A DNA stretch of 64,000 nucleotides from Candidatus Kapaibacterium sp. Its GTDB lineage: Bacteria > Bacteroidota > Ignavibacteria > Kapaibacteriales > UBA2268. Below the pieces are notes generated by a model. That model was not told the origin of the DNA. It made no database searches and saw only the letters and a program-made list of their open reading frames with translations. The first letter of the stretch is position 1, and every line of letters starts with the position of its first letter. The DNA is taken from the NCBI GenBank assembly GCA_013414795.1, contig CP058732.1, positions 422,501 to 486,500 of the forward strand, read 5' to 3'. A program made the position numbers and the translations under genes. This document shows positions 14,807 to 58,549 of the stretch, one piece after another.

Positions 14807-15466
14807 ATGAAAAAATATATTATTCTTTTGATTGCAACAATAATTCTTGGCTTTGTAGCAGGGAACAAAGCCAGCGGACAATGTGAATATTGTCAATATC
14901 CCAAAATCTGCAATATTGTAAACTTTAATATTGTATGCAATGGGAATAGTTATCCAATAACAGCGGTGGTTTGTTATGAATGTACTGATCCATTAGTTTA
15001 TAATGTTCAGGTTTTAGAATTCTCATACCCTCCCGAACTCGAGAGGATAATGTATGACACGAATTACCAATATTATAATCCCGCTTGTGAAGATGCAATG
15101 TGGGACAACCTCTGGGCAATAATTCGCAGCAAAGCATTTGAACTTTGTGGATATGTAAATTGTCCAAACAGAGTAACAATTTTAAGGACCATACCAATTT
15201 GTGGTGAATTTATCTATGAAGGACCACCGGGACACGAATTCATTAGAAAAAGGTTTCATCCGGGTACTTGCAACTTACGATGCGTTGTTCGACTAAGCGT
15301 TTGTTACGATTACAATAATCAAACTTTTAATGAGCAGCTTGTCAGTCGAGAATATTTTGGGGTGTGCCCAGACGAAGCTATTTACCCACGCGAGATTTTT
15401 GACCCAACCACCCCCCCATTTAGACTCGAATGTGCCCAATTGTGGTCAACAAGATATTGTCCTTAA
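14807..15466 (+). CDS. Small secreted Cys-rich protein, type A (array unit 1)
   Basis: 219 aa. The signal peptide MKKYIILLIATIILGFVAG is shared with the other small array proteins. The mature part has 16 Cys, beginning SGQCEYCQYPKICNI, the type-A opening, and continuing with an ACEDAMWDNLW helix and a late CNLRC pair. It has no membrane anchor or sorting domain, so it is likely exported to the periplasm or beyond and stabilised by disulfides. It is followed 32 bp later by a type-A large propeller protein, its presumed partner. No known family is recognised. Confidence 0.85.
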   Translation: MKKYIILLIATIILGFVAGNKASGQCEYCQYPKICNIVNFNIVCNGNSYPITAVVCYECTDPLVYNVQVLEFSYPPELERIMYDTNYQYYNPACEDAMWDNLWAIIRSKAFELCGYVNCPNRVTILRTIPICGEFIYEGPPGHEFIRKRFHPGTCNLRCVVRLSVCYDYNNQTFNEQLVSREYFGVCPDEAIYPREIFDPTTPPFRLECAQLWSTRYCP

Positions 15467-15498
15467 TAGAAATATGTTAGAATATTTGGAGAAAAGCG

Positions 15499-18057
15499 AT
15501 GAAAAGCAACAATATTTTCAACCGAAGGGGTAAATTATACCCCTTCGGGGCTATTTTGACAATCTGTATGATAATGTTCGCTTCTACACTTGAAGCAAAG
15601 AATTTCGACCTAACACCACTTCGAAACGGCTTCTTTGGTTCTGTTATTATCGACTCTACAATAATAGTTTACGGGGACTTCGGGGTTATTTACCGATCAA
15701 CCGATTTGGGGACAACTTGGAAAATGCATTTGATAGGTGAAGATGCTATTATTCGTCGAATGGAAAATTTTAATGATACACTTTGGGGAATATTAGAAAA
15801 AGGAAGTATTATCCGTTCGACAAATAAAGGAGAAACTTGGGAAATCCTTGCCATTGATGTTCCCCGAAACGAAAGATTTTATTGGTTGCTTATTGATTCA
15901 AACTACTTTTATATTCGTTGTGATAGTTCAATCTTAAAGTTAGATCGGAATTTAAAACTTTTAAAATCAATAACAAATGAATTTCTTAAAATTCGTTGGA
16001 TTGATATTTATTGCGATTGTACATTGTTGAGTCGCGTAAAGTTTCCTACTCCAATTAAATTCTTTTTTGTTTTTGATAAAATCGTTGTTCCGATAAGATC
16101 TTCTAATACCTCTTTGGTAGAATCTTTTTGCGTTATTGACAAGGAATTAAATAATTTGAATTTGGTTACAATTTCTGACAAAATACCCAAACAAAAAGAT
16201 GAAAATTATTTGGCACTTGTGGATATATTTTATTTTGATAATACTTATACTTTTCAATTTATCCCCAGATATGGGCTTTTCAAAACAGATTCAACTTTCG
16301 AAAATTGGCAATGGTTTTTCAAAGATCCTTCTTTTCTAAATTACACATTCGAGGATTCAACCTTAAGATGGCAGAATTATAATAGAGTTGGCAGATCTTC
16401 TTTATTTACTGATAATACTACCCTTTATGGAATTTATAGTGAAATGGTAAAACATATTGTAGATACAATTGGTTCTTTTAAAATCCTATTTAATAAAATT
16501 TGTATTAAAAAATATAAAAGTCAACCCCAAGATACTTTTATAGTAATTGGTAATCCGTTTAAAGATATTTTCTTTGCAACTGTTGAATATAACTACTCCT
16601 ATTACAAACTAGTTAATGACATAATACCGAACCATTTACTCTTACCAAATGTTACAGTAAGCAATAATACCGCTGTTTTTACTTCAAACAATCCAGGAAG
16701 TTATTTAGCACAGGACAAGTTTATCCTTTTATCCCGTAACCAATTTTCTGAATGGGACTTTGTAAATCTTGTCCAAGGGCAACCCTTTTATATTCTCAAT
16801 GACTCAACCTTTTTCTTTGTAAAAGAATTGGAGATTTATAGAACATTTAATAGTGGTATTACTTTTAAACCATTTGAGGCATATACTGAAGGCGACACCG
16901 ATTCATATATTCCAGGCCATCTCAATCTTCGGAGAATTACTCAAATGTACATTGATTCCTCGGGCAAAGGTGTGTTATTAGGTATACCTCGAAATCCATT
17001 CCCTACTAAAACATATAACTTTTTCAAAAATATAGAACATCCAGTTTCTATCCCTTATTATGAAAGTATTCGTTCCTATCCTAATGAGTATCCAACTAAT
17101 ATTTCATTTATTGAAGACCAGTTTCTATTTGGTTTTTATGATACTAGTAGAATTAATTTTAGATATAAAATTTACGTTGGCGACAGTAGTTTCTTACGTT
17201 TCAAATTTATTACATTAGATTCCTTGTTTGCTCCGATGTATCTTGTACCTCGAACAATAAAAGATTTCCTTGCTATTGGCTTGGCAAACTTCAATTCAGA
17301 TACAACATTTGAAATTCGCAACACCACTGATACTGGGCACACTTGGACAACACCAGTTAAGCTCATAAATTTTGGTAAAATCAATCAGATTTATGCACAC
17401 AACCAAGATTCTGTGTTTATTACTTTCACGCAACCCGACAGAGTTTATCTTTACGACAGAACCCGCGATACACTGCAACTTCTTTGGCAACCAGAGACCG
17501 ACGAAGGTCAGAATCCTTTGCTTATGGTCATCTCCGACCGATTTTACCTTGTTGGGAAGGGGCTGTTCTTGGAAAATACTGATAGAAGCGACTTGACACA
17601 GTGGCGCCAAGGCGAATGGGACTACGGCAAGCCAAATTTCGAGAGCGTCATCTTCAAGGGCAATGTTGCAATCGCGGGATTGAGCGATTCGCTCCGTCCA
17701 TTCAACTACTACAAGATTACATTGAAGAAGGGAACTCCATCAAGTGTTGAAACCGAACTCGAGAAGCGGTACTACACGACGAAGTTCTGGGCGAGCGAGC
17801 CGTATCCACAGCCAGCGGGCGTGCGTGTCAAAGCACGAATTGCTTGGGACGGCAGTTTCGATGTTGTCGAAGCAATCGACGGCGTCTACGACTCTATGGG
17901 ACGCAAGGTTGAAGGCAAGGAGAGGATACGGATAACACTTCGGGACAAAGGCTACGGCGAACTGGAATGGGAATGCAGTGGGGTGCCCGCTGGAGTCTAC
18001 TTTGTCCTCTTGCGTTGGGCTGGCGGAAGCGAATCCGTCCCCGTCGTTGTGGAGTAG
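15499..18057 (+). CDS. Large secreted Asp-box propeller protein, type A, with sorting domain (array unit 1)
   Basis: 852 aa. GGAG stands upstream of the ATG at 15499. The signal peptide (GAILTICMIMFASTLEA) is followed by the type-A opening NFDLTPLRNGFFG. Asp-box motifs (S/T-x-D-x-G-x-x-W: STDLGTTW, STNKGETW, TTDTGHTW) mark beta-propeller blades, as in BNR/Ycf48/sortilin-like proteins. The last 180 residues are near-identical to other type-A members, starting at LLMVISDRFYLVGKG. They end in a Por-type sorting domain (YPQPAG, SMGRKVEG, SGVPAGVYFVLLRW, SVPVVVE). The 3' cassette is visibly richer in G+C than the AT-rich body. Predicted T9SS export and surface attachment or release; ligand unknown. 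Confidence 0.85.
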   Translation: MKSNNIFNRRGKLYPFGAILTICMIMFASTLEAKNFDLTPLRNGFFGSVIIDSTIIVYGDFGVIYRSTDLGTTWKMHLIGEDAIIRRMENFNDTLWGILEKGSIIRSTNKGETWEILAIDVPRNERFYWLLIDSNYFYIRCDSSILKLDRNLKLLKSITNEFLKIRWIDIYCDCTLLSRVKFPTPIKFFFVFDKIVVPIRSSNTSLVESFCVIDKELNNLNLVTISDKIPKQKDENYLALVDIFYFDNTYTFQFIPRYGLFKTDSTFENWQWFFKDPSFLNYTFEDSTLRWQNYNRVGRSSLFTDNTTLYGIYSEMVKHIVDTIGSFKILFNKICIKKYKSQPQDTFIVIGNPFKDIFFATVEYNYSYYKLVNDIIPNHLLLPNVTVSNNTAVFTSNNPGSYLAQDKFILLSRNQFSEWDFVNLVQGQPFYILNDSTFFFVKELEIYRTFNSGITFKPFEAYTEGDTDSYIPGHLNLRRITQMYIDSSGKGVLLGIPRNPFPTKTYNFFKNIEHPVSIPYYESIRSYPNEYPTNISFIEDQFLFGFYDTSRINFRYKIYVGDSSFLRFKFITLDSLFAPMYLVPRTIKDFLAIGLANFNSDTTFEIRNTTDTGHTWTTPVKLINFGKINQIYAHNQDSVFITFTQPDRVYLYDRTRDTLQLLWQPETDEGQNPLLMVISDRFYLVGKGLFLENTDRSDLTQWRQGEWDYGKPNFESVIFKGNVAIAGLSDSLRPFNYYKITLKKGTPSSVETELEKRYYTTKFWASEPYPQPAGVRVKARIAWDGSFDVVEAIDGVYDSMGRKVEGKERIRITLRDKGYGELEWECSGVPAGVYFVLLRWAGGSESVPVVVE
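15522..15548 (+). promoter_or_regulatory. Hairpin at small/large junction, unit 1
   Basis: Perfect 11-bp stem CCGAAGGGGTA / TACCCCTTCGG with a five-base AATTA loop. It lies within the first codons of the large gene, 56 bp after the small-gene stop. It is not followed by a clean T-run. Confidence 0.75.
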
Positions 18058-18421
18058 GATTTTGCAAAGAATTTTATTTTCATTTGCATATTTCAAAAAA
18101 TATTTATAATTTGCGAGCAATTAAAGTCGGGAATAGTATGTTGATAGTAGGCGACATAGTAGCTGAGATTATCCAGAAGATACAGCCGATACCTATGCTT
18201 ATTCCATTCAGAGAGAGAGAGAGAGCACATCAACTCAGAGGAAATGGTCTGAATATAGATTCCTACGGCACAAATGTTCCCAATGCCGTGGACCACCAGA
18301 AGGGGAAGGAGAAACCAAGGACTTATACTGTACATAATTCCAAATTTCGTTCTTTGAAATTTGTTATTGTTAAAATTCTTTTAAACAAATATTTTTGTTA
18401 AATCAATAAGGAGAAATTAAA
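18058..18421 (+). repeat. Array intergenic repeat R2, (AG)8
   Basis: Full-length copy between large 1 and small 2. It begins right after the large-gene stop (TTTTGCAAAGAATTTTATTT) and includes an uninterrupted (AG)8 run at 18210-18225. It ends in the promoter and leader of small 2. An open frame reading LIVGDIVAEIIQKIQPIPML and on through RERERAHQL runs through it in the same direction; whether it is translated is unclear. Confidence 0.92.
18366..18397 (+). promoter_or_regulatory. Bacteroidota-type promoter of small gene 2
   Basis: ATTG (18366-18369), 20 bp, TATTTTTG (18390-18397), identical in layout to the copy at 14751. AAGGAGA precedes the ATG. Confidence 0.7.
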
Positions 18422-19027
18422 ATGAAAAAATATATTTTTCTTTTGGTATTTATTTGGCTTATATTCTCCATATCTAATACTGCAAAATCTGATTGTCCAC
18501 CAAATTGGTATCAAAAAACGATCATCTTCTCAATTGGAAACTGCTTATACTTTGCTGATTATTGCTATAAATGTGGAGTAACCGGTCCCGACCCTTCTAA
18601 TGTTAAAGTCACTAAGTACGGAAAGATTCCAAATTTACAATGTGACGACTCGCAAATAACAATAGAAGAAGTAGTTAATGTGATGATGGAACAAATACGA
18701 CAGAAATTTTACCAAGATTGCATCATTCCACCCTGCGAACCATCTACCGAACCTTTAAGGTTTATCGTAGAATATCCTCTATGTCATTATTACATTAATA
18801 GACCCCCTTTAAGGTGGTGGGAAAGCTGTAATTCCGAACAATTTTATTGTCAAAAGGTTAGATACTGTTGTTACTTAAATGGTGAATTGTTTTGCTGGGA
18901 CGGACCAATTCAATCTCAAGGTAATGAATTTAGTTGCAATCCAGGACCGCCTGTTTTACCGCCACCAGGCTCGACGTGGGATGAGGACTGGAATAGTGAT
19001 TGCTATTATGATACTAGTTGCCAATAA
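18422..19027 (+). CDS. Small secreted Cys-rich protein, type B (array unit 1)
   Basis: 201 aa, 16 Cys. Only the first residues of the signal peptide (MKKYIFLLV) match the array consensus, and the rest differs (FIWLIFSISNTAKS). The mature part opens DCPPNWYQ, has CYKCGVTGPDPSNVK in common with the type-B protein at 54305-54892, and ends PPPGSTWDEDW..C..C like the one at 44220-44915. It precedes the type-B large protein at 19088. No known family is recognised; disulfide-rich export to the periplasm or outside is inferred. Confidence 0.85.
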   Translation: MKKYIFLLVFIWLIFSISNTAKSDCPPNWYQKTIIFSIGNCLYFADYCYKCGVTGPDPSNVKVTKYGKIPNLQCDDSQITIEEVVNVMMEQIRQKFYQDCIIPPCEPSTEPLRFIVEYPLCHYYINRPPLRWWESCNSEQFYCQKVRYCCYLNGELFCWDGPIQSQGNEFSCNPGPPVLPPPGSTWDEDWNSDCYYDTSCQ

Positions 19028-19087: not shown

Positions 19088-21499
19088 ATGAAATGGGTAC
19101 TTCTTTATTTGATTTTGAGTTTAATTTGGTCGTTCAATTTTCTTTTTTCGCAAGTTCCGTTCACAGTTGAACGGATTGGAACTGACTATAATGGGGTTAT
19201 CGAAGCAAACGGTAGAATAATTGCATACGGGAACAATGGTGTTCTTACTTTTTCCGATGATTTTGGCGAACACTGGCGTCAGATAAATCTTGGCGAATTT
19301 ATTGACATTTTGAAGATTATAAAAGATGAATCAAATACACTTTATGCACTAACGAGAAACGCGATACTTGTCAGCAAGGATAAAGGCAATTTCTGGGTTC
19401 AAAAAAATATTACCAGCGATAGTGATTTAATCGATGTTGCAATAAAAGACAATTTAATCTATGCAATTTCACCAAATAAAATCTTTATGATTGATAAGGA
19501 ATTTAACAGTGAACCAGGAATATTTCTCGAATTCGATAATTTTACCTACTTTTCTAAAAGTGAAATCATTGGTAATTACCTTTTTGTTGTTGAGTCTGAT
19601 TTCAATATCTTTCGAATTCAAATTAATACAAAGAAAGTAGATACAATAGATATTCGCACAAAATACAATTTTGGTGGCTTATATAAAAGTATTGCAAACA
19701 TCAAAATAAATAGTAATGCCTTATACATTCTTGTTGAGAATGGGAACAACCAAATCCCAACTGAGTTTGATTATACGAACAAGAGACATTTGATACTTAA
19801 ATCCACTGATCTTGGTAATACTTGGGAATTTGTTACTTCTAACATACCGATTACAAAAGATTTTGATATTGATTATGATGGGAGTATTTTCACGCTGGCA
19901 CCCATATTGTTAACTCAAGATAATTTGCGCTATTTTAGTGTCAGTTTTGTAAAAGATAAGGATACAACATTTCAAGAACATATTCAAACTGATTCATCCG
20001 GAATTTGGTTTCCCTATTTCACTGCTGAAGGAGATGGTATACAAACAAAATATGCCTTTAGTTCTATTAGAAAGATTAATGATATAATAATTGCCGTAGG
20101 GAATTACAAAACAATTCTTTTATCAAAAGATGGGGGTGAAAATTGGAAAATGGTAAGTTTCTTTAGACCATTATTTAATAGTGCGGCTGAATTTTATGAT
20201 TTAATTATAAAAGCGGATACTTTTGTTGTTTTAACGGACCAGGGACCAAATTGTTTCGTTTCAACTGATGCTGGTGCAACTTTTGTTCCTATTTCACGTC
20301 AACACTGGATTGAACTTGCTAGGAATTTTTCACTCCAGAGAATGCCTTTAGCATTTCCCAATGGCAACTTTGCATTTGTTGGATGGAAAATCACATCCAA
20401 GGGAAAATTGACAGATACGTTAGTCGCAAAAGTTTCGAAAAACTTCGGCAAAACGTTTTCAACTCTTGAATATCCTATTGGCACAAAAATAATTAATGAC
20501 ACAATCTCTGCCTTGTTTAAATATAAATTTTTCATTAACGACAAAAATAGACTTCTCTTCAGTTTTATTTTGTATAGGGGCTCTGGACCAAAATGGATAT
20601 TTTGTTTTTTTGATACGGACTTTAATTTGGTTGATACAATTTTAATTTATGATTATTATTACTATTTTCAACCCTATGGTGGAGGAATTATTATTTTAGA
20701 TAGTTCCGGGATACATTTTTCATCGGACCTTGGAAAATCAAAAAGTTTGCTTTCTATTCTTCCTAAAAAAAGCTTTTTTAAGAACTATAATGATTATCTT
20801 TCTTATAGTTTATTGGGGATTTTCCGAAATAAAGCCCTGATTCTCGAATCGTCACCTTCAAATAAACAATTGTTAAGTTATGACATCGTGGGAAATTATT
20901 ACGACTCTATTCCTATACCAAATAATATTTATTCTTCTTTCATTATGAACGATACTGTTCTCATTACAACAAATGACACTATTTACATATTTCCCTATTT
21001 TGAAACTAACTTAAAGAATTATTTGGCTTTACCCATAACTCAAATTATTTCCGACGATTTTAAGTTTTTGTCTACTATTAGAAGAGATAATGTCTCTTAT
21101 CTATTAGCATTAACAAAAAGAATCAGTTCTGGTTTTGCATCTGTCAACCAACTGAATTTAGCGATAATTTCTCATAGAAACAATTATTTGAATGTTGAAA
21201 CCGAGGTGGATAAAAATTTTGTATATCTTTTTGCTTATCCGCCGTTCCCAAATCCTGTACATAATTATTTACATTTAAAAGTTTACTGGGATTCCGATTT
21301 TGGCAAAGATAACATTAGTATTTCTATTTACAACATCAAAGGTGAAAAAATTAACAGTTCTTTGGTGAATTTTGTCCCGGAGAACTCATTCAATGGCTTA
21401 ATTGAAATCGATTGTAGTGTTTTGCCCTCGGGTATCTACATTGTTACAATTTCTCTCGCAAATAGGACTATCTCGTTGCCATTTGTTGTTCAAAGATAA
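19088..21499 (+). CDS. Large secreted Asp-box propeller protein, type B, with diverged sorting domain
   Basis: 803 aa. GGAGG stands before the ATG. The signal peptide (LLYLILSLIWSFNFLFSQ) is followed by the type-B opening PFTVERIGTDYNGVIEANG. Asp boxes are SDDFGEHW, SKDKGNFW, STDLGNTW and SKDGGENW. The C-terminal domain is still of sorting type (YPPFPNPVHNYLHLKVYW, YNIKGEKIN, LPSGIYIVTISLANRTISLP), with the canonical PNP motif. It is not the near-identical array cassette. An intact copy of that cassette lies 15 bp beyond its stop. This may show the ancestral C-terminus before cassette homogenisation. Confidence 0.85.
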   Translation: MKWVLLYLILSLIWSFNFLFSQVPFTVERIGTDYNGVIEANGRIIAYGNNGVLTFSDDFGEHWRQINLGEFIDILKIIKDESNTLYALTRNAILVSKDKGNFWVQKNITSDSDLIDVAIKDNLIYAISPNKIFMIDKEFNSEPGIFLEFDNFTYFSKSEIIGNYLFVVESDFNIFRIQINTKKVDTIDIRTKYNFGGLYKSIANIKINSNALYILVENGNNQIPTEFDYTNKRHLILKSTDLGNTWEFVTSNIPITKDFDIDYDGSIFTLAPILLTQDNLRYFSVSFVKDKDTTFQEHIQTDSSGIWFPYFTAEGDGIQTKYAFSSIRKINDIIIAVGNYKTILLSKDGGENWKMVSFFRPLFNSAAEFYDLIIKADTFVVLTDQGPNCFVSTDAGATFVPISRQHWIELARNFSLQRMPLAFPNGNFAFVGWKITSKGKLTDTLVAKVSKNFGKTFSTLEYPIGTKIINDTISALFKYKFFINDKNRLLFSFILYRGSGPKWIFCFFDTDFNLVDTILIYDYYYYFQPYGGGIIILDSSGIHFSSDLGKSKSLLSILPKKSFFKNYNDYLSYSLLGIFRNKALILESSPSNKQLLSYDIVGNYYDSIPIPNNIYSSFIMNDTVLITTNDTIYIFPYFETNLKNYLALPITQIISDDFKFLSTIRRDNVSYLLALTKRISSGFASVNQLNLAIISHRNNYLNVETEVDKNFVYLFAYPPFPNPVHNYLHLKVYWDSDFGKDNISISIYNIKGEKINSSLVNFVPENSFNGLIEIDCSVLPSGIYIVTISLANRTISLPFVVQR

Positions 21500-21513: not shown

Positions 21514-21821
21514 AAAGCCAGGTCGAGAAGAGGTACTACACGACGAAGTTCTGGGCGTCGGAGCCATATCCACAGCCAGCGGGCGTGCGTGTCAAAGCAC
21601 GCATTGCCTGGGACGGCAGTTTCGATGTCGGCGAAGCAATCGATGGCGTCTACGACTCGATGGGACGCAAGGTCGAAGGCAAGGAGAGGATACGGGTAAC
21701 CCTTCGGGACAAAGGCTACGGCGAACTGGAATGGGAATGCAGTGGAGTGCCCGCTGGCGTCTACTTCATTCTCTTGCGTTGGGCTGGCGGAAGCGAATCC
21801 GTCCCCGTCGTTGTGGAGTAA
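21514..21821 (+). repeat. Orphan sorting-domain cassette with sharp boundaries
   Basis: About 305 bp nearly identical to the 3' ends of the array large genes. It starts at AAAGCCAGGTCGAGAAG (the Q-V-E-K position) and stops exactly at the stop codon. The flanks on both sides match nothing in the array, and no intergenic repeat follows. An in-frame ATG at 21585 would give a 78-aa fragment without a signal peptide, so it is unlikely to be a functional gene. Confidence 0.9.
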
Positions 21822-21842
21822 GTTTTTATAATTCGATTAAAC

Positions 21843-21873
21843 AACCCCAAGCAAAACGCTTGGGGTTTATTTT
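21843..21873 (+). terminator. Terminator closing the plus-strand array
   Basis: Perfect stem AACCCCAAGC / GCTTGGGGTT with an AAAAC loop, followed by TATTTTG. It lies 21 bp after the orphan cassette and just before the convergent rluD gene. Confidence 0.85.
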
Positions 21874-44915: not shown

Positions 44916-44938
44916 TTTTTCCCTTTCTTTTTGTTATA

Positions 44939-44970
44939 CAAAAATAAATTTTCCAAAGAATTTTTACAAC
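44939..44970 (-). promoter_or_regulatory. Bacteroidota-type promoter
   Basis: Minus strand: GTTG (44970-44967), 20 bp, TATTTTTG (44946-44939), upstream of the small gene at 44220-44915. The spacer sequence differs from the plus-strand array while its length is kept. Confidence 0.7.
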
Positions 44971-44984
44971 AACAATTGTCAAAG

Positions 44985-48254: not shown

Positions 48255-50795
48255 CTACTCCACGACGACGGGGACGGATTCGCTTCCGCCAGCCCAACGC
48301 AAGAGAATGAAGTAGACGCCAGAGGGCACTCCACTGCATTCCCATTCCAGTTCGCCGTAACCTTTGTCCCGAAGTGTTACCCGTATCCGCTCCTTGCCTT
48401 CAACCTTGCGTCCCATCGAGTCGTACACCCCGTCGATTGCTTCGCCGACATCGAAACTGCCGTCCCAGGCAATGCGCGCTTTGACAGGTACGCCCGCTGG
48501 CTGTGGATACGGCTCCGACGCCCAGAACTTCGTCGTGTAGTACCTCTTCTCGACCTGGCTTTCAACTGTTGTCGGCGTTTCCTTCTTTAATGTTATCTTG
48601 TAGTAGTTGAATGGACGGAGCGAATCGCTCAGCCCAGCGATTGCAACATTGCCCTTGAAGATGACGCTTTCGAAATTTGGCTTGCCATAGTCCCACTTGC
48701 CTTCCCGCCACTGGGTCAAGTCGCTTCTATCTGTATTTTCCAGGAACAGTCCCTTCCCAACAATGTAAAATCTGTCGGAGATGACCATAAGAAGGGGATA
48801 GTATGCGGATCCTTCGTCACTCCAAAGGATTTTCAATTGGTTGTTTATACGGTCGTAAAGATAGAGTCGGTCAGGAAATGAAGTTGTAAAAAATACGCTA
48901 TCGGAATTGTGCTGATAAAATTGGAGGATTTCACCAAAGGAATCAACTATTCGATGGAGTGTCAAAAAAGTTTTGCCGGTATCATTTGTTAAACGAATTT
49001 CGAACGATTCTTTGGTTAGGTTCGTTGTATCTTGAACCAAGGTAAAGCAAATGAAGTTTTTTCCCGAATTGCTTGGTAATAAATGCAAAATCCTTAAACC
49101 CCAGTTTAAGATGATTTCTCTTCCATTTAACAAAGAGGTATCAAGGACGATAAATCTAGAATAATATGGTTGATTTTGAGAAAAGGGATCGCAATTTGCT
49201 GCAACAAAATAAAAATTACCAATCCTAACTATGTTGGATGAATTACATTCTTTATAAGGGGAATATGTTCCAACACTAAGAAATTTATCCTTTATATAGT
49301 GATATGATTCCCAAAAATTATAAGTATGATAAATTCTGTTACATTGTTCATGCTTATTTAAGCCTTTAAGAAAACCACGCCCTGTTGAATCAATAAAAAA
49401 ATATGGCAAAGTGTAGAAACAAGTTATTGGTATTCTATTGGTATAACCTTCCAGAAAGTTTTTCGAGGGTAGAAAAGTTATCCCCCCGTCTGTTGTTCGA
49501 TTAACCTCGGTAATCTCTTTATCTTGTAAAACAAAAAAGAATGTTGTGTCGTTTAAAATTACTCTTGGAACTCCTGCTAAATATGAAATTAATCGCCAAT
49601 TATAACCCTTGTCTGTTGTAATAAACAAAAATTTATTTCTACTCGTAAATACCCAAAAACTGTCGTTTACTGCCAAAGAAGGTGTATTAATCCGTGTCGA
49701 TAAGTAGGGGTCAACAAGTTCACCATTTATATAATAGTAGCCATTATACACATCATAGAATGGGTTACCTTGTGCAACAAACGTATCTTTTGGGTTAGAA
49801 AGGTATTTTTTAACAGAATAAATATTAAATTGATAATATGCTATATATTTGCTTGGACCAATTGTATCGTATTTAATAGAATCGTCAGTTTTAGCAATGT
49901 AAAGCGTATCGTTAACAGTAAAATAAAAATGTGGAAACCCATAGAACAACCATTTTTTATAAACTTCATACGATGTATCGAAGTTCATAAATAAGGTATC
50001 TTTATAAAAATAATTAAACTTTGAGAAAATCGAATCTGTCGTATATAAGTTTTGATTAATTCGAAAAATTTTTGTTTCCTTAAAGTCCATAACTTTTAAA
50101 AACCCTTCGTAACCCTTAAAACCAGGGAATTTTTCAATTAAATTTACTAGTTCAAAATTATCTAAACTTGTGTCGACAGCAACGAAACCACTGTCGAAAA
50201 AACTTTCACTGCTAAGCAATATTTTTCGGTTGAATAAATAGATATCATCATCAAAATAATTATTGATAGGTTTAACCACTTCATCGGGATTACCTTCGAC
50301 TAATTTGTTCAAAGTTGGCTTGAAAACAGAATTTTTTATACTTTTTACTATTTTTCCATTTCTATCCAATTTGTACAAAGTTTGTAAGCCTCTAATATAT
50401 ATGTTGTTTTCTGTAACAAGTATTTTAAGAAACCTTTCGCTAGCCTCCAAGTCAAATTTCTTCAAAGTCCAATTATATCCGCCATCAGTTGAAATTATTA
50501 AATACCCGTTATACATCACCCCAAAAAGGGTATCCTTGAAACTAACCATTGACCTAATTTCGTCATAGACACCCACAAATCTTTGATTCCAACTTTTTCC
50601 AAAATCCGATGAGATAAGATAACTTCCAAAATCACCATAAACAACGATATTATTTTTGGCAAAAGCAGCGCCGTAAAACGAAATTTTAAGTGGGGTTAAT
50701 TCGTAATCAAAGCAAGATATTGTTTTATTTAAAAAGAAAAACAAAGGTATGCACCAAAGAAGCATACCCTTGTAAGATTTATTCTTCCTGCCCAC
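48255..50795 (-). CDS. Large secreted Asp-box propeller protein, type A
   Basis: 846 aa if it starts at the GTG at 50795, which has GGAG upstream and overlaps the small gene by 17 bp. An ATG at 50765 is the alternative and leaves the signal peptide MLLWCIPLFFFLNKTIS intact. Type-A opening FDYELTPLKISFYGA. Asp boxes SSDFGKSW, STDGGYNW, TTDKGYNW. It ends with the type-A block (LLMVISDRFYIVGKG onward) and the cassette sorting domain. It pairs with the type-A small protein just upstream. Confidence 0.85.
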   Translation of the reverse strand: MGRKNKSYKGMLLWCIPLFFFLNKTISCFDYELTPLKISFYGAAFAKNNIVVYGDFGSYLISSDFGKSWNQRFVGVYDEIRSMVSFKDTLFGVMYNGYLIISTDGGYNWTLKKFDLEASERFLKILVTENNIYIRGLQTLYKLDRNGKIVKSIKNSVFKPTLNKLVEGNPDEVVKPINNYFDDDIYLFNRKILLSSESFFDSGFVAVDTSLDNFELVNLIEKFPGFKGYEGFLKVMDFKETKIFRINQNLYTTDSIFSKFNYFYKDTLFMNFDTSYEVYKKWLFYGFPHFYFTVNDTLYIAKTDDSIKYDTIGPSKYIAYYQFNIYSVKKYLSNPKDTFVAQGNPFYDVYNGYYYINGELVDPYLSTRINTPSLAVNDSFWVFTSRNKFLFITTDKGYNWRLISYLAGVPRVILNDTTFFFVLQDKEITEVNRTTDGGITFLPSKNFLEGYTNRIPITCFYTLPYFFIDSTGRGFLKGLNKHEQCNRIYHTYNFWESYHYIKDKFLSVGTYSPYKECNSSNIVRIGNFYFVAANCDPFSQNQPYYSRFIVLDTSLLNGREIILNWGLRILHLLPSNSGKNFICFTLVQDTTNLTKESFEIRLTNDTGKTFLTLHRIVDSFGEILQFYQHNSDSVFFTTSFPDRLYLYDRINNQLKILWSDEGSAYYPLLMVISDRFYIVGKGLFLENTDRSDLTQWREGKWDYGKPNFESVIFKGNVAIAGLSDSLRPFNYYKITLKKETPTTVESQVEKRYYTTKFWASEPYPQPAGVPVKARIAWDGSFDVGEAIDGVYDSMGRKVEGKERIRVTLRDKGYGELEWECSGVPSGVYFILLRWAGGSESVPVVVE
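50742..50772 (-). promoter_or_regulatory. Hairpin at small/large junction
   Basis: Eleven-base stem CAAGGGTATGC / GCATACCTTTG with one G-U pair and a nine-base loop, followed in the minus direction by TTTTTCTTTTT. This is the most terminator-like of the junction hairpins and lies within the signal-peptide codons of the large gene. Confidence 0.72.
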
Positions 50796-51387
50796 ATTCC
50801 CTCCAATTTATAAAAGTACAATCTTGAGAAGGTGGATAAGGTAATGGCTTGCAATTTCCATTGCCTTCGATAGTAAATGAAATTGGGGCCCAATGTACGT
50901 GCGGATTAGGGCATTTATCATCCCAACACTGTCCAGGTACACAATTGCACCAACACCATTCCCATTCTTCTATACATTGCTTGTAACAATCCCAATTGCC
51001 CTTGTAAATGTTTATCCTTCCGTTGACGTATTCAACTTTACCACAAATTGGCCGAGTAAAAGTTAACTTCGCACTCTCAACTTCACAGGGAGTACTTCCA
51101 CATAACATTGCATAGTTGTTCAAAACCCAATTCCTTGCGTAATTATAAGCCTCGTCTTCCATACCCAAGCATACGTTCCTAAGATAAATTTGGAAATATG
51201 CTTGAAGATGAGTTACTGCACAAGTGTAGCAGATTACTGCTTGAATACCAGGACAATCTGGCAAATCAAATGTCAAAACATAGCACAAATTCGGTTGTTG
51301 GCAAACCTCACATTGTCCGCTGGCTTTGTTCTCAGCTACAAAGCCAAGTATTATTGTTACAACAGAAAGAAAAATATATTTTTTCAT
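50779..51387 (-). CDS. Small secreted Cys-rich protein, type A
   Basis: 202 aa, about 20 Cys, the most of any copy. The signal peptide MKKYIFLSVVTIILGFVAE differs from the consensus at a few positions. Type-A opening SGQCEVCQQPNLCYVLTF. A W-C-W-C-N-C cluster near residue 145 is unique to this copy. The ribosome-binding site GGGAG lies before the ATG. It is paired with the type-A large protein that overlaps its 3' end. No family recognised. Confidence 0.85.
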   Translation of the reverse strand: MKKYIFLSVVTIILGFVAENKASGQCEVCQQPNLCYVLTFDLPDCPGIQAVICYTCAVTHLQAYFQIYLRNVCLGMEDEAYNYARNWVLNNYAMLCGSTPCEVESAKLTFTRPICGKVEYVNGRINIYKGNWDCYKQCIEEWEWCWCNCVPGQCWDDKCPNPHVHWAPISFTIEGNGNCKPLPYPPSQDCTFINWRECGQEE

Positions 51388-51410
51388 TTTAATTTCTCCC
51401 TTTTGTTAAA

Positions 51411-51442
51411 CAAAAATAATTGTTTTAAGGTTTTTTTACAAA
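51411..51442 (-). promoter_or_regulatory. Bacteroidota-type promoter
   Basis: Minus strand: TTTG (51442-51439), 20 bp, TATTTTTG (51418-51411). A perfect -33 element. Confidence 0.75.
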
Positions 51443-51737
51443 TTGTCAAAGAGCGGAAGTGGATTTAAGTCGAACGCTTTTCAACTTCTTCTCCTCCCCT
51501 TCTGGTGGTCCGCGGCATTGGGAACATCTGTGCCATAGGAATCTATATTCAGACCATTTCCTCCGAGTTGATGTGCTCTCTCTCTGAATGGAATAAGCAT
51601 AGATATCGGCTGTATCTTCTGGATATTCTCGGCTACTATGTCGCCTAATATCAACATAATATTCTCGACTTTAATTGCTTGCAAGTTATAAATTAATTTT
51701 TCAAATATCCAAAGAAAATAAAATTCTTTGCAAAATC
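51443..51737 (-). repeat. Array intergenic repeat R5, (AG)5
   Basis: Full copy between the type-B large gene (stop at 51738) and the small gene at 50779. It has the shortest uninterrupted run, (CT)5 at about 51576-51585. The crossing frame stays open (FRERAHQLGGNG). Confidence 0.92.
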
Positions 51738-54230
51738 CTACTCCACAACCACAGGGACGGATTCGCTTCCGCCAGCCCAACGCAAAAGAATGAAGTAGAC
51801 ACCAGAGGGTACTCCACTGCATTCCCATTCCAGTTCGCCGTAGCCTTTGTCCCGAAGGGTTACCCGTATCCGCTCCTTGCCTTCAACCTTGCGTCCCATC
51901 GAGTCGTACACCCCATCGATAGCCTGCAAAAGGTTGGAAACTTCACTACAATAAATCTTTGTTCGAACGGCGTTGCGTGCAGGAAGTGGGTAGGGCGGGG
52001 TGTAGTACAAACCCACGAAGTCGTTGTTTTTCTTTGATTCTACTGGCAAGTATTTAGGCTTCTCATAAACTATCTTTGCAAGGTTAAGTTCAAAATAGTT
52101 TGAAAATAGTAAACTACCAACATATTTGAGAATGTGGCAAATTCCGAATCCGTTTCCGCTTGTTATATTATCAATATAAGAGTCCTCGTAATTAAGCAGT
52201 TGAGCGACATCGATCGAATCATAATTTCGAAGGTTTTCTATTCCGGAAGGGAAGAAATAAAGAATAGGCTTGCGGTATAAAAATCCAAAAATTGTATCAT
52301 TATAAATAAAGAAACTCATAGGGAAAGGATAAGTTTCTATCGAATCCAAACTAAAATTATTTAAGTTAAGTATTAGAAGTTTTTCAATAAATTTTCCAGG
52401 TTGGGGGTTGATATATTTGTTAATTAACAAATAGTTTTTGTAATAAAAGTTAAAACTTAAACCACTTTCGTCGCTATGAAAAGTATACAAAGTGTCCCAA
52501 TTTTTTCCGAAATCGAAAGTTCGAAGAAGAAAAGGTTTTATAATTAAAAAAGTAGTTGAATCAACAAATAAGTGATTAAGAAAACGTAGAAAAACTTTCT
52601 GGAAAACTAAAGAATCGAGTACGTTGAAAGATTTATCAAAAAAGTAACAATATGAATCGACTGTGGTATCAATTTGTTTTTTAATGAAAGCACTGAAAGT
52701 AATCAATACAGAATTGCCATAAACTTTTTTGGATACAATTTCAAATTGTAAGGAATCATTGTATAAAAAATAATCTCGTTTAAAAATCTTTTTAGAAAAA
52801 CTTTGACCAAAATCTTTTGAAAAAGATATTTCAAACAATAGAGAATCGTAAACAATAGTGTAACTATAATTATCCTTCTTTATTGTATGCGAAAAAAACA
52901 AGGTATTAACCAAAGCAAACGTTCCGTCGTCCCAAACAATTATTTGGTTGGCACGTTTTGGGAAGTTTTCGATTGTCCTTTTTGGTGGTAGAAAAGTTGC
53001 GCCTTTGTTGAAAGAAACATAAATAAATGGTCTTATAGTGGTTAAAACCAGAATTGTATCTTTCGAAAAAAATTTGACTTCCTTTTTTTGCTCAACTATT
53101 GGTTTGAAGTAACTTACCAATTCCCAGTTTAACCCGTTGTTTTTCGACCTTAAAATTGTTTTATTTGGCCCAACAGCGATTATTGTTTCTTTGTCAAGTT
53201 TAATGAACATATTTACCCGGAAGGTATTAGGTATAGAAATGTCTGAAGGGTGATACTGCCCCATATAAACAACTATTCTTCTGTCGAGAAGTTCATCTCT
53301 ATTGATTTCTTGTTCTTTTCCAGTGGAATCGATTTTGAAATATCTTATTGTGTAATAGTATTGGTAATTGGAAGTATCCATCCAACATTTATGAGTTAAG
53401 AAATAGATGGTATCGTCGATTATTTGATATTCTTTTGTCAAACGAATGTTTCGAGTAGCAATATCCCAATTTTCTCCCAAATCCGATGATTGTAAAACAC
53501 AATGACGGATATTATCATCGGCGTATTCAGGGTTGTTTGCCGCTAAAAAGTTTTGGAAAATATTCTCGGCTAACACAAATATTTTGGAACCAAAAACTTT
53601 CAAATGGGAAATATCACGAACTAAACTATCCCCCTTTAAAACTGTTTGATGAAGGTCTATTATAATGCTTTCCTTAGTTTCAAGATTTATCTTGTAAATG
53701 TAGTACCAACTTTCGATGCAAAAGAGGTAATTTTCTAAATACACAATTTCATTAAGAGAAGCAAACTCGAATTGGTAAATAGGTTCAAGGTTGCCTTGGA
53801 AAAGAACATCAATTCGCAAGATGGCACTTTCACTAATTATGTAAAAGAATTTACCATCGGTAGTGAAATCTCTAAAAGTTTGGTCTTCGAAAAATTGGCG
53901 CTGAGTCCAGTTTAAGCCATTGTCAGTGCTTTTCAAAATCGAGAATGGAGTAAGCGCGTAGAAATTGCCATCTATTTCGATGATTTTCAAAATATCAAGT
54001 TTATCCCCAAGACAAATTTGATTCCAGGTTTCCCCTTTATCTGTCGAATATGTTATTACTCCATATTTTCCGTAAGCAAGCAGATTTTTTCCATTATAAG
54101 CAACACCGTTGTAGTCTGTACTAATTCGCTCAATTTGGAAAGGGAACTTATCGTTGGAATTTGCATACGAAAGGCACAAGATTAAAAATGTTGATGTTAA
54201 TAAGAATTTTTGTAAAATTATTTTTTTCAT
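51738..54230 (-). CDS. Large secreted Asp-box propeller protein, type B, with half-converted sorting domain
   Basis: 830 aa from the ATG at 54230, chosen for the AGGTGAACTA just upstream; an earlier ATG lies inside the small gene. The signal peptide (MKKIILQKFLLTSTFLILCL) is followed by the type-B opening FPFQIERISTDYNGVAYNG, close to the 803-aa protein. Asp boxes STDKGETW, STDNGLNW, SSDLGENW, SKNNGLNW. In the sorting domain the first half (YYTPPYPLPARNAVRTKIYC) is unlike the array cassette, while from AIDGVYDSMGRK to the stop it is near-identical. The switch is abrupt, as expected at the end of a gene-conversion tract. Confidence 0.85.
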   Translation of the reverse strand: MKKIILQKFLLTSTFLILCLSYANSNDKFPFQIERISTDYNGVAYNGKNLLAYGKYGVITYSTDKGETWNQICLGDKLDILKIIEIDGNFYALTPFSILKSTDNGLNWTQRQFFEDQTFRDFTTDGKFFYIISESAILRIDVLFQGNLEPIYQFEFASLNEIVYLENYLFCIESWYYIYKINLETKESIIIDLHQTVLKGDSLVRDISHLKVFGSKIFVLAENIFQNFLAANNPEYADDNIRHCVLQSSDLGENWDIATRNIRLTKEYQIIDDTIYFLTHKCWMDTSNYQYYYTIRYFKIDSTGKEQEINRDELLDRRIVVYMGQYHPSDISIPNTFRVNMFIKLDKETIIAVGPNKTILRSKNNGLNWELVSYFKPIVEQKKEVKFFSKDTILVLTTIRPFIYVSFNKGATFLPPKRTIENFPKRANQIIVWDDGTFALVNTLFFSHTIKKDNYSYTIVYDSLLFEISFSKDFGQSFSKKIFKRDYFLYNDSLQFEIVSKKVYGNSVLITFSAFIKKQIDTTVDSYCYFFDKSFNVLDSLVFQKVFLRFLNHLFVDSTTFLIIKPFLLRTFDFGKNWDTLYTFHSDESGLSFNFYYKNYLLINKYINPQPGKFIEKLLILNLNNFSLDSIETYPFPMSFFIYNDTIFGFLYRKPILYFFPSGIENLRNYDSIDVAQLLNYEDSYIDNITSGNGFGICHILKYVGSLLFSNYFELNLAKIVYEKPKYLPVESKKNNDFVGLYYTPPYPLPARNAVRTKIYCSEVSNLLQAIDGVYDSMGRKVEGKERIRVTLRDKGYGELEWECSGVPSGVYFILLRWAGGSESVPVVVE

Positions 54231-54272
54231 TAGTTCACCTACTTTATTATTAGAAAATAAACATAAATAATA

Positions 54273-54289
54273 GGGACAATAACTGTCCC
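54273..54289 (-). promoter_or_regulatory. Hairpin at small/large junction
   Basis: Six-base stem GGGACA / TGTCCC with a five-base loop in the 74-bp gap between the small and large genes. A T-rich stretch follows in the minus direction. Confidence 0.65.
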
Positions 54290-54304
54290 CGAAAGTTTTT
54301 GATT

Positions 54305-54892
54305 CTATGGACATTTGCATTCATATTTAATAAAACAGTCCGACTCATAACCAGGCGGCGGCAGTGGCGGTCTTTGTGGTAAACAACTATTTGGGTCGCC
54401 ATAAGTTTGCCAACCCTCACAAGAAGATTGATATTGCCCATTCCCTGAATAACATATATTCATAACAAATTGACAATAATAATTGAAACTGCAAGGTATC
54501 TCAATCGAGGTATAGCCCAGATTGATTATTTTGGCGCATATAGGATATTCAACAACAACTCGTAAAGTATTTCCGGTGTTACAATCTGGTATTTGGCATT
54601 TGTTAAAGTAACTTTGGCGGATTGCTTCCCAAACTATTTCAAAAGGTTTTTCTCCTATGCAATCAGGGCTTTCTGGGTTATCCCAACCATAAAAAGTAAT
54701 TTTAATATTAGATGGATCAGCCCCGGTAACCCCGCATTTGTAACAATAAACAATTTTGATTCTACAATCGCCGATGTATGGTTGAATGATTGTTGCTTCA
54801 TCCCAGCCAAGTGGACAATCTGCCCTGGCTTTGTTCCCTGCTACAAAGCCAAGTATTATTGTTGCAACCAAAAGAAAAATATATTTTTTCAT
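54305..54892 (-). CDS. Small secreted Cys-rich protein, type B
   Basis: 195 aa, 16 Cys. Consensus signal peptide MKKYIFLLVATIILGFVAG. Type-B opening ADCPLGWDEATI, then CYKCGVTGADPSNIKIT, nearly the same as the 18422-19027 protein. It ends PPLPPPGYESDC with CKCP at the terminus. It is paired with the type-B large protein whose opening also matches the plus-strand type-B large protein. No family recognised. Confidence 0.85.
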   Translation of the reverse strand: MKKYIFLLVATIILGFVAGNKARADCPLGWDEATIIQPYIGDCRIKIVYCYKCGVTGADPSNIKITFYGWDNPESPDCIGEKPFEIVWEAIRQSYFNKCQIPDCNTGNTLRVVVEYPICAKIINLGYTSIEIPCSFNYYCQFVMNICYSGNGQYQSSCEGWQTYGDPNSCLPQRPPLPPPGYESDCFIKYECKCP

Positions 54893-54916
54893 TTTAATTT
54901 CTCCTTATTGATTTAA

Positions 54917-54948
54917 CAAAAATATTTGTTTAAAAGAATTTTTACAAT
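54917..54948 (-). promoter_or_regulatory. Bacteroidota-type promoter
   Basis: Minus strand: ATTG (54948-54945), 20 bp, TATTTTTG (54924-54917), followed by AAGGAGA before the small-gene ATG. Confidence 0.7.
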
Positions 54949-55253
54949 AACAAATTTCAAAGAACGAGATTTGGAATTATGTACAGTATAAGTCCTTGGT
55001 TTTTTCCCCTTCTGGTGGTCCACGGCATTGGGAACATCTCTGCCATAGGAATATATATTCAGACCATTTCCTCCGAGTTGAGGTGCTCTCTCTCTCTCTC
55101 TGAATGGAATAAGCATAGGTATCGACCGTATCTTCTGGATATTCTCGGCTAATATGTCGTCTACAATCAACATAATATTCTCGACTTTAATTGCTCGCAA
55201 GTTATAAATATTTTTTGAAATATGCAAATGAAAATAAAATTCTTTGAAAAATC
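54949..55253 (-). repeat. Array intergenic repeat R6, (AG)8
   Basis: Full copy between the 867-aa large gene and the small gene at 54305, with (CT)8 at about 55086-55101. It shares with R1 and R2 the promoter-proximal segment ACTTATACTGTACATAATTC. Confidence 0.92.
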
Positions 55254-57857
55254 CTACTCCACAACGACGGGGACGGATTCGCTTCCGCCAGCCCAACGCA
55301 AAAGGATGAAGTAGACGCCAGCGGGCACTCCACTGCATTCCCATTCCAGTTCGCCGTAGCCTTTGTCCCGAAGTGTTACCCGTATCCGCTCCTTGCCTTC
55401 AACCTTGCGTCCCATAGAGTCGTACACCCCGTCGATTGCTTCGCCGACATCGAAACTGCCGTCCCAGGCAATGTGTGCTTTGACAGGTACGCCCGCTGGC
55501 TGTGGATATGGCTCCGACGCCCAGAACTTCGTCGTGTAGTACCTCTTCTCGACTTCGTTTTCAACAGTTGTCGGCGCTTCCTTTTTCAATGTTATCTTGT
55601 AGTAGTTGAAAGGACGGAGCGAATCGCTAAGCCCAGCGATTGCAACATTGCCCTTGAAGATGACGCTTTCGAAATTTGGCTTGCCATAGTCCCACTTGCC
55701 TTCCCGCCACTGTGTTAAATCGCTTCTATCGGTATTTTCCAAAAACAGCCCCTTCCCAACAATGTAAAATCTGTCGGAGATGACCATAAGTAATGGATTT
55801 TGAGCATCGTCGGTTTCCGGTTGCCAGAGAAGTTGTAAAGTATCGCGTGTTCTGTCGTAAAGATAAACTTTGTCGGGTTCCTTGAAAGTTATGAACACAG
55901 AATCTGGGTTGTGGTCGTAGATTTGGTTAATGTAAGAATTAACGTTCAAACGATGCAGAGTTTTAAAAATGAAAACTGAATCGAATTTTTGGTATTTTTT
56001 AATTTCAAAATGGAAGTCTCTATAATTTAGTGGATTATTTACATAGGAAAAGGCGATAAACTCATAGAGGTTTTGAGGTAAAATATACAAGGCTGCAGAA
56101 AGTGTATCAACCAATTTTTCATTATAATTGTTAAAAGAAGTATCAAGATAACAAACCCAAGTTCGGTAACCTATGTTCCACCATTGTGAAATTGTATCGC
56201 TTTTTGTAAAAAAATAAAAGTTATTAAATTTTGAAACATTTGAGGTAAATTGTTCGACCGAAAAGCCATTAAATTGATAACTGAGGAGTTTAAAATTTTC
56301 TAAAATTTTAGAATCAAAGGAATCCCAAGCATCATCGGAGATTGTGAGTATTTGCGGGTCCCACCGTTGATGTCCTTTTGCGAATCCTTTACCATTTCTA
56401 TCAATGTAAAACAGTGAAAAAGTACTATATGGGATATCCTTTGCCGATTTGTAACCTTCCCTGAAATTTTTTGCCGGAATAAATGACAATCCACCGTCAG
56501 AAGTTTTATAAATTTCAGTAATTTCGTCATTACCCCAGTGATTAATAAAGAAGTAAATTGAATCGTTTATTATTAATCTTGGTTTTCCTCTCAAATATGA
56601 GATTAATTCCCAATCGTTTCCGAAATTTCTTGTGATTACTAAAGTTCTATTTTCTTTTGGGAATATTAAGAGTGAATCAAATAAAAGGTATGGCCACATA
56701 CTAAACATTTTAAAACTTACGTTGTTTACAATTCCGTATTTTTTATTGTAAAAATCATAATAGTGAGTATAGTAGGTATCAATGAAACTATTTCCAACTT
56801 GGACAAATGTGTCAGGGTTGGAAATATACTTTTTAATCCCAAAAATGTTGTATTTCTTGTTTGAAAGGTCGTTACTTTTTAAAAATAACATGTATAGACT
56901 GTCGTTGTGGAAAAAATAGGTAAAGGGATTTCCAAATTCATACCACTTTGGACTGGAGGGGTTGGTTTCTGTATTCATAAAAAGAGTGTCTTGGAAGAAA
57001 TATTGGTAATGTGCAAAAGTACTGTCGATAAAGTAAAGATTACCATTGATTTGAAGAATTGGTTGTCCCTTAAAATAATGTAAATTTGTAATACCATAAA
57101 AATTTGGTGGGTAAAAACCATATTTTTTACGATTTTGAATAATTTTATCCCGAAGGTCGATTACTTTGTAGGAAGATAGGTTCTTATCAACGAGCAAAAA
57201 TCCTTTATCGGCTAAATTTTCGCATTCAACTATTAATTTTTCATATACAAAAAAGAAATTGTTCATATCAAATTCACTGAATGAATAAGGTAGTCCAGGG
57301 TCAATATATTGGTTTTCTGACACATATAAAATTTCATCTTTAATTTCGTTGGTCTTTTTTAAGCCTTTATCAAAAAGTTGTAAAGTCGTTTTAGTTCTTA
57401 TATAGATACCAAAATCTGTGACAAGGATATTTGTTAACATATCGCCACTATCAAGTGGAATTATATTCTCTTCCCATGTGTTTCCACAATCCGAGGATAT
57501 AATTATAGTATTTGCGGAAGTAATTCCCCATAAAGTATCGTTAAAATTCACAATTTTATATATTTCATCAAATTCGCCTATGCTTTTTTGTTCCCAACTG
57601 ATGCCTCGATTTGTTGAAATAAAATATTGCCCCATATTTCCATAACAAATAATAATATTCCCACAAGCGGTTGCACCATTAAAATTAAAGGAAAGAGGTG
57701 TTAAATTAAAAGTTTCAGAGTTTGAACTTGTAGGGGACAAAAGGTATAAAAGAAAAACTGCGAATAAAATGGAAATAATTCGGGCCGTGGATTGGCAAGA
57801 GCCAATCCACAAACCAGATAAGATTTGGAAAAGAATTATTCGTTTTTGCCGAAACAT
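55254..57857 (-). CDS. Large secreted Asp-box propeller protein, type A
   Basis: 867 aa from the ATG at 57857, preceded by GGAGATGAA; a TTG at 57911 would add 18 residues. The N-terminus has an extra stretch (LWIGSCQSTARI) encoded by an inverted repeat, then the hydrophobic signal (ISILFAVFLLYLL). Type-A opening TFNLTPLSFNFNGA. Asp boxes STNRGISW, SSDCGNTW, TRNFGNDW, TSDGGLSF. It shares with the 852-aa protein an even longer 3' block, from D-R-T-R-D-T-L-Q-L-L-W on, through LLMVISDRFY and the sorting cassette. It pairs with the type-A small protein upstream. Confidence 0.85.
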   Translation of the reverse strand: MFRQKRIILFQILSGLWIGSCQSTARIISILFAVFLLYLLSPTSSNSETFNLTPLSFNFNGATACGNIIICYGNMGQYFISTNRGISWEQKSIGEFDEIYKIVNFNDTLWGITSANTIIISSDCGNTWEENIIPLDSGDMLTNILVTDFGIYIRTKTTLQLFDKGLKKTNEIKDEILYVSENQYIDPGLPYSFSEFDMNNFFFVYEKLIVECENLADKGFLLVDKNLSSYKVIDLRDKIIQNRKKYGFYPPNFYGITNLHYFKGQPILQINGNLYFIDSTFAHYQYFFQDTLFMNTETNPSSPKWYEFGNPFTYFFHNDSLYMLFLKSNDLSNKKYNIFGIKKYISNPDTFVQVGNSFIDTYYTHYYDFYNKKYGIVNNVSFKMFSMWPYLLFDSLLIFPKENRTLVITRNFGNDWELISYLRGKPRLIINDSIYFFINHWGNDEITEIYKTSDGGLSFIPAKNFREGYKSAKDIPYSTFSLFYIDRNGKGFAKGHQRWDPQILTISDDAWDSFDSKILENFKLLSYQFNGFSVEQFTSNVSKFNNFYFFTKSDTISQWWNIGYRTWVCYLDTSFNNYNEKLVDTLSAALYILPQNLYEFIAFSYVNNPLNYRDFHFEIKKYQKFDSVFIFKTLHRLNVNSYINQIYDHNPDSVFITFKEPDKVYLYDRTRDTLQLLWQPETDDAQNPLLMVISDRFYIVGKGLFLENTDRSDLTQWREGKWDYGKPNFESVIFKGNVAIAGLSDSLRPFNYYKITLKKEAPTTVENEVEKRYYTTKFWASEPYPQPAGVPVKAHIAWDGSFDVGEAIDGVYDSMGRKVEGKERIRVTLRDKGYGELEWECSGVPAGVYFILLRWAGGSESVPVVVE
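57787..57810 (-). promoter_or_regulatory. Perfect hairpin in the signal-peptide codons
   Basis: Ten-base stem GTGGATTGGC / GCCAATCCAC with a four-base loop, 47-70 bp inside the large gene. It sits in the junction position seen in the other units. Confidence 0.72.
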
Positions 57858-57892
57858 TTCATCTCCAATTTTTTTAAAAATATGCAAAAAAA

Positions 57893-58549
57893 TTAGGGAT
57901 ATTGTGGGCAAGTTGGCTTTGCAAGATTTCTAACACATTCCAATCGCCAATTTATGTTTGGGTCATATTGGTACTCCGGTGGGGTCCCAGGGGCATTACC
58001 ATAAGGGAAATACTCACAAGTACCGTTTCCACTTGGATACCTTTCCACTAATCGACGTTGTGTAGTAGGTGGGGTTGTGGAGTAATCGCGGCACCACTCA
58101 TATTTTTCGGTACAGCGTTTGTCGCAAGACCCAGGGTGAGCACGCACTGTAACTCGACCAGTTGCCCCATTCCATTGTACCTCTGCACAAACAGGTACAG
58201 TATAGTAAACCTCGAAGGGTGGTGGTGTATTGCAAGGCCAACTACCACAGAGTTTATCAATATTGTCCAGTGCCCATTGATGAACAAAATCCCAGGCTGC
58301 ATCTTCACATTGTGGACAATATGATATTTCGGCCACATATAAGGTAATGGAAGGTCGTGTAACACCACATTCATAACAGAATACAGCAGTCAAACTATCG
58401 CAACAACCAGGAATACTAAATGTTAATTCGTAGCACGATCCCGGCAATGGAGAAACACATACTTCACAACCAACTTGTCCGCTGGCTTTGTTCCCTGCTA
58501 CTAAGCCAAGAATTATTGTTGCAACCAAAAGAAAAATATATTTTTTCAT
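57893..58549 (-). CDS. Small secreted Cys-rich protein, type A (first gene of the minus-strand array)
   Basis: 218 aa, 18 Cys. Signal peptide MKKYIFLLVATIILGLVAG. Type-A opening SGQVGCEVCVSPLPGSCYEL, then CEDAAWDFVHQWALDN, matching the ACEDAMWDNLW helix of the plus-strand type-A protein, and a CDKRC pair like CNLRC there. It is paired with the type-A large protein 35 bp downstream. No family recognised. Confidence 0.85.
   Translation of the reverse strand: MKKYIFLLVATIILGLVAGNKASGQVGCEVCVSPLPGSCYELTFSIPGCCDSLTAVFCYECGVTRPSITLYVAEISYCPQCEDAAWDFVHQWALDNIDKLCGSWPCNTPPPFEVYYTVPVCAEVQWNGATGRVTVRAHPGSCDKRCTEKYEWCRDYSTTPPTTQRRLVERYPSGNGTCEYFPYGNAPGTPPEYQYDPNINWRLECVRNLAKPTCPQYP

Follow-up and report, generated by a model that had tools for sequence, protein, structure and literature searches.

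Type-matched pairs of small cysteine-rich and large predicted propeller proteins within apparently homogenized export ends in Candidatus Kapaibacterium sp.

The 64,000-nt stretch of DNA analysed here (the window; positions 422501–486500 of CP058732.1) belongs to the 2.66-Mb, single-contig genome of Candidatus Kapaibacterium sp. (G000 below) and carries six gene pairs, each encoding a small cysteine-rich protein followed by a large protein, together with one lone large gene, in two clusters on the plus and minus strands. We consider it probable that these pairs form a diversified two-protein module, exported by the type IX secretion system and inherited as a unit, in which the partners would bind each other and act at the cell surface, and whose ends would be copied between cassettes. 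As sequence comparisons delimit it, a cassette consists of a core (the mature small protein and the body of the large one) set in a frame (leader and signal peptide on one side, secretion tail and intergenic DNA on the other). Outside the window, the genome contains a lone large gene and a pair of type A (types are defined below) at 2.02 Mb, two pairs of type C, at 0.53 and 2.40 Mb, and four lone large genes of type B, one each at 0.26 and 0.74 Mb and two at 1.88 Mb. In total, the genome has nine pairs and 15 large genes, six of the latter unpaired. Coordinates are window positions unless given in Mb or as g-numbers.

Comparison of the cores within the genome separates the partners into three types, A, B, and C, with the same membership in the small and the large groups, and all nine pairs match by type. 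The original prediction had placed the genes correctly and described the six pairs of the window as matched, both of which are borne out, but it recognized only two types; its type B splits into B and C, the latter corresponding to its "777-aa form" (the pair 44220/41813, with relatives g532159/g532912 and g2397991/g2395561, each of them C with C). Some of its type markers have to be revised as well. The LLMVISDRFY block, taken as defining large A proteins, is the start of a 3' frame segment copied from cassette to cassette, with species-specific spellings, and the PPPG..W motif of small B proteins is missing from the one at 54305 (PPPGYESDCF). Nor does the proposed A-then-B order hold, given that the minus-strand cluster reads A-B-A-(A)-C (parentheses denoting lone large genes) and that (A)-A and (B)-(B) arrays exist elsewhere in the genome. 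For the nine pairs, small and large distances are correlated (Mantel r = 0.81, P = 0.0008), and hidden Markov models trained on the pairs of this genome alone assigned the small and the large protein to the same type in 13/13 other pairs of the genus. Beyond the genus, many pairs are of other types (small weakly B-like, large weakly A-like), and the three-way typing was therefore applied only within it.

Congruence was examined on a larger set by comparing distance matrices and maximum likelihood (ML) trees of mature small proteins and large bodies for 70 pairs from 26 genomes of one order, the relatives being Candidatus Kapabacteria and allied metagenome-assembled genomes, most of which are fragmented and break at frames. 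The Mantel correlation reached 0.68, against maxima of 0.13 under random shuffling and 0.45 under shuffling within genomes, and 0.925 in the genus only (largest shuffle, 0.54). The two ML trees have 24 splits in common (random maximum 3, within-genome relabelling maximum 11). Among 15 strongly supported splits of the small tree, 13 are also strong in the large tree and 14 are compatible with all its strong splits, the sole strong conflict involving two long-branched members, G012 C15 and G018 C77. The tree comparison that the original prediction had suggested, with more copies included, favoured matching over random pairing. The small-then-large order is kept throughout the bacterial order, with a median gap of 58 nt, though the proteins share as little as 20–25% identity across it. 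Behind 82 small-gene hits in the relatives, a large open reading frame follows directly in 66 cases, a large-family sequence in 7 more, and a contig-end cut in 5; a small gene is hardly ever seen without a large one. The two-gene family was present in 33/100 related genomes and confined to this order in a phylum-wide sample of 395 genomes, with at most seven candidates scored per genome.

The limits of what is inherited together do not coincide with the limits of the genes. Across the genus, the mature small protein is coupled to the body of its neighbour (r = 0.91) and the signal peptide to the tail (r = 0.76), while within genes the correlation falls to 0.09 between signal and mature small protein and to 0.15 between the large body and its own tail; the N- and C-terminal parts of the large body correlate at 0.935. 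Frame DNA is found in this genome at cassettes only, and in all framed cassettes it is nearly identical over the intergenic segment, the leader, the signal peptide, and the last 180–660 nt of the large gene. Core-frame junctions are sharp and differ by cassette (about −660, −540, −300, and −180 nt, and none). When two species are compared, orthologous cores (mature small genes) show 63–73% DNA identity, while signals of framed cassettes are 88–100% alike within each genome and ~60% alike between them, and upstream DNA is up to 95–99% identical within the genome (70–87% between two leader subgroups) and 40–56% between species; over signals and upstream DNA as a whole, interspecies identity lies at 40–65%. 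The block after VISDRF has one spelling in G000 and one in G002, each common to non-orthologous cassettes. Since the frames of one genome resemble one another, whereas orthologous cores reach only 63–73% identity between species, we conclude from these comparisons that the frame ends evolve in concert, apparently by gene conversion or recombination. Signal and tail are homogenized within the genome also in other genera (e.g., G007, G019, and G027).

The plus-strand cluster starts with a frame leader (14576–14806, 91% identical to 18191–18445), followed by pair 1, of type A (small, 14807–15466; large, 15499–18057, its final ~660 nt being frame), and by an inter-cassette frame segment (18058–18421) that has ~90% or more identity to other such segments over long stretches. 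Pair 2, of type B (small, 18422–19027; large, 19088–21499), has the frame leader and approximately the first nine codons in frame DNA, identity to which stops around codon 9, and from there on consists of foreign sequence up to the large gene's stop codon. This stretch takes in a different secretion tail of its own, which exceeds the cut-offs of the sorting-domain models (PF18962, 36.1 vs. 27 bits; TIGR04183, 29.3 vs. 23 bits). Behind it lies a solo frame tail (21514–21827; 92–95% identity to other tails), which starts where the frame starts in the type-C cassette. The simplest reading of this arrangement, drawn from one genome and with its direction not proven, is that a complete type-B pair took the place of an older cassette's core. 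The minus-strand cluster, listed along transcription, comprises a frame leader (58550–58885); pair 3, of type A (small, 57893–58549; large, 55254–57911, final ~660 nt frame); a frame segment (54893–55253); pair 4, of type B (small, 54305–54892; large, 51738–54320, final ~180 nt frame); a frame segment (51388–51737); pair 5, of type A (small, 50779–51387; large, 48255–50795, final ~540 nt frame); a frame segment (48000–48254) that stops short of the upstream DNA belonging to the lone large gene; the lone large gene, of type A (45272–47908, final ~540 nt frame); a frame segment (44916–45271); pair 6, of type C (small, 44220–44915; large, 777 aa, 41813–44146, final ~300 nt frame); and a cut-off copy of the frame behind this last cassette (41686–41812). 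Decayed pieces of large-protein tails also lie at 3927–4012 and 5795–5983, between unrelated genes and far from the cassettes. Solo tails in G001–G004 were considered as recombination scars and not counted, since they sit at contig ends and represent assembly cuts.

The type-C large protein is predicted to form two tandem beta-propellers (residues ~30–322 and 323–669) with a beta-sandwich at the C-terminal end (pLDDT 81), and its propellers match known ones with Z scores of 20–22. At the sequence level, large proteins show weak BNR, Ycf48, and Sortilin-like similarity: two of type B match the BNR/Asp-box family (PF02012, 30.4 and 29.7 bits, cut-off 27), scores for Sortilin/Vps10 (PF15902; 28.5, 22.5, and 13.2 bits) stay below the cut-off of 33, and positions 33–109 of the large-protein profile match HCF136/Ycf48 sequences from the PDB. 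With the Ycf48/HCF136, Sortilin-Vps10, and BNR/Asp-box propellers they thus share local repeat similarity, but only short stretches match, and here two propellers in tandem are joined to a secretion tail. The framed tails align with those of paralogues and are predicted as a separate beta-sandwich. The genome encodes the sortase PorU (NF033707, 773 bits, cut-off 420) and the translocon protein SprA (PF14349, 96.7 bits, cut-off 27). An N-terminal signal, a predicted C-terminal beta-sandwich tail, and the presence of PorU and SprA are shared with known type IX cargo (TIGR04183/PF18962), from which the framed copies differ by tails matching neither model. To our knowledge, none of the known type IX cargo types has its own small cysteine-rich partner encoded ahead of it.

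The small protein has ~200 aa, 12–13 conserved cysteines, and a signal peptide, and lacks a secretion tail and, by eye, a lipobox. Thirteen columns, mostly cysteine, are invariant in the nine small proteins of the genome, and in the wider set (70 sequences, 26 genomes) each of 13 cysteine columns is kept in 79–99% of rows. No relevant match was found in Pfam, NCBIfam, PADLOC, PHROGs, or PDB sequences. The AlphaFold2 model is compact, with three strands, two helices, and five strands in succession (pLDDT 87). Kinship to solved or viral structures was not retained (best Foldseek E-value 0.06, best Z score 3.7, no sequence match), and we assign no fold to the model, a lack of structural match not being sufficient to show a new one.

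Taken together, these features suggest the following scheme. Both proteins would cross the inner membrane by a Sec-type signal, after which the type IX system, whose cargo passes the outer membrane in folded form (PMC9251779), would transport the large one across that membrane, to be fixed at the surface. The small protein would be its dedicated, disulfide-bonded partner, bound to the propeller, and types A, B, and C would represent old lineages of the whole pair. The core would be inherited as one block and diverge, while gene conversion or homologous recombination would copy the frame among cassettes, so that different cores come to share the same start and export ends, and expression and export stay constant while cores vary. 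Facing outward, the pair might serve recognition or adhesion, a task in which a varied repertoire would pay. We propose more tentatively, as a possibility that we ourselves hold doubtful, that the exchangeable unit is the whole two-protein recognition module, inserted between constant export ends and removed again by recombination in such a way that the matching survives the shuffling.

Several observations weigh against this scheme. Six of the 15 large genes of the genome have no small partner, and in relatives small partners decay (G001 C43, G004 C15); the large protein is thus able to persist by itself. The framed tails go unrecognized by the sorting-domain models PF18962 and TIGR04183, and frame homogenization is weak or absent in several genomes (e.g., G003, G022, and G064). 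The deep branches of the small and large trees are in weak conflict, and very old re-pairing of the partners may therefore have occurred. In support of the matching, one of the 13 further pairs of the genus is that of the G002 orthologue (48% identity) of the lone large A gene; it is preceded by a type-A small gene, the frame of which is broken near its start in that assembly, and the G001 orthologue of the lone large B gene at 0.74 Mb retains a decayed type-B small gene; these lone genes therefore derive from pairs of the predicted type. Given its loss in some lineages, the small partner is not always needed. Frameshift-broken small genes were seen at L163 (G002 C28, ~3000–3080) and L098 (G004 C15); the break at L163 falls close to the A-rich beginning of the signal peptide and may reflect an assembly error, slippage, or decay.

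Linkage alone would also yield matched types, and binding between the partners is what we infer. The argument of the original prediction, that co-segregation speaks for specific pairing, stands for the matching itself, but matching between neighbouring genes that recombine at their outer ends is in itself no evidence of binding. It may be that neighbouring operon genes were simply duplicated and inherited together, with no recombination between them and no specific binding, an explanation that we hold to be unlikely though deserving serious attention. It predicts a small-large correlation about equal to that between two halves of one gene, as found (0.91 and 0.935); recombination is limited to the repeated, high-identity ends, the interior having too little identity for partner swaps; and lone large genes exist. 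Against it stand the retention of gene order across a whole bacterial order and the near absence of small genes without large ones, which suggest joint function, though not type-specific binding. The kept order, the rarity of small genes alone, and the presence of a whole foreign pair in one cassette speak for a functional unit.

Joint function could also take the form of a small protein acting in the periplasm, as a chaperone or quality-control factor while its large partner is exported, and staying outside the surface complex. A signal peptide and conserved cysteines with no secretion tail would suit such a helper, as would a type-matched gene placed directly before that of its partner; yet large genes persist without the small protein in the genome and in relatives, and the small sequence has diversified to the same degree as its partner's, which would not be expected of a general helper, so we regard this possibility as rather improbable. 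Multi-copy, diversified, matched pairs with conserved export ends and recombination at these ends also recall conflict systems, in which a contact-dependent effector and its immunity or carrier protein would diversify like polymorphic toxins. Such a role seems very improbable here: no toxin, nuclease, or defence domain was found in Pfam, NCBIfam, PADLOC, or PHROGs (one weak PHROGs match, of unknown function), the large protein is predicted as beta-propeller over its whole body, export signals are present on both partners, whereas cytoplasmic immunity proteins would have none, and lone large genes are tolerated.

The surface module that we favour has partial parallels. In multi-copy surface families of the pilin or vls type, conserved ends are recombination sites for variable middles. 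Here, the variable unit spans two genes, and no layout of silent cassettes and one expression site was seen: all cassettes have a leader, a start codon, and intact reading frames, and only the solo tail at 21514–21827 looks silent, as judged from sequence. In Porphyromonas gingivalis, type IX surface proteins of the gingipain/adhesin group are diversified by domain exchange and allelic recombination (PMC5266723). Those are domains of single large proteins that vary between strains, whereas here a two-gene core lies within ends homogenized among the loci of one genome. A search of the literature on the type IX system with gene conversion, concerted evolution, multigene families, or cysteine-rich partners returned nothing on this paired system. 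The present data define a two-gene family that joins a small cysteine-rich partner without Pfam, NCBIfam, or PDB sequence relative to a predicted tandem-propeller surface protein, and they reveal a clean division inside single genes, some parts undergoing concerted evolution and others being passed on in one block with the adjacent gene. The naturally matched and mismatched pairs allow tests of partner specificity, with the lone large proteins as controls.

The leaders and cluster ends contain further motifs. The sequence CGYTCTTTGAMA occurs ~50–75 nt before the small gene in exactly the six paired cassettes (14733, where it covers 14733–14744 within the first plus-strand leader, 18348, 44977, 51444, 54955, and 58606; 0.1 expected by chance), and it resembles the boxA antitermination element of rRNA leaders. 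It was not retained as a family-wide element, being present only in the frames of two species, this one and G002. A (GA)n repeat, the length of which varies per copy, lies in the ~300-nt leader between a promoter-like site, TTTG-N20-TAAYTTG, and the start codon (e.g., 18190–18290, 55060–55160, and 58700–58800) and is a possible slippage site. An identical terminator-like hairpin, CCCCAAGCAAAACGCTTGGGG, is found behind the final tail in two separate clusters (21828–21870 in the window; 9300–9350 in L038), while inner tails continue into the following leader. An Rfam scan of the window returned rRNA only.

Several neighbouring genes also deserve mention. A type ISP restriction-modification enzyme (33032–36151) lies between the two cassette clusters. 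A single open reading frame at 28810–30639 combines, according to Pfam, an N-terminal response-regulator receiver domain with a sodium:sulfate symporter, an odd transporter-receiver fusion that adjoins another receiver protein and a Cache histidine kinase (31098–32843). Finally, a 1073-aa protein (38067–41288) shows Sortilin/BNR and fibronectin similarity, a type IX tail, and a 97-residue tandem repeat, and its gene is overlapped by that of a 492-aa protein without Pfam match (36682–38160), made of 45–46-residue repeats.

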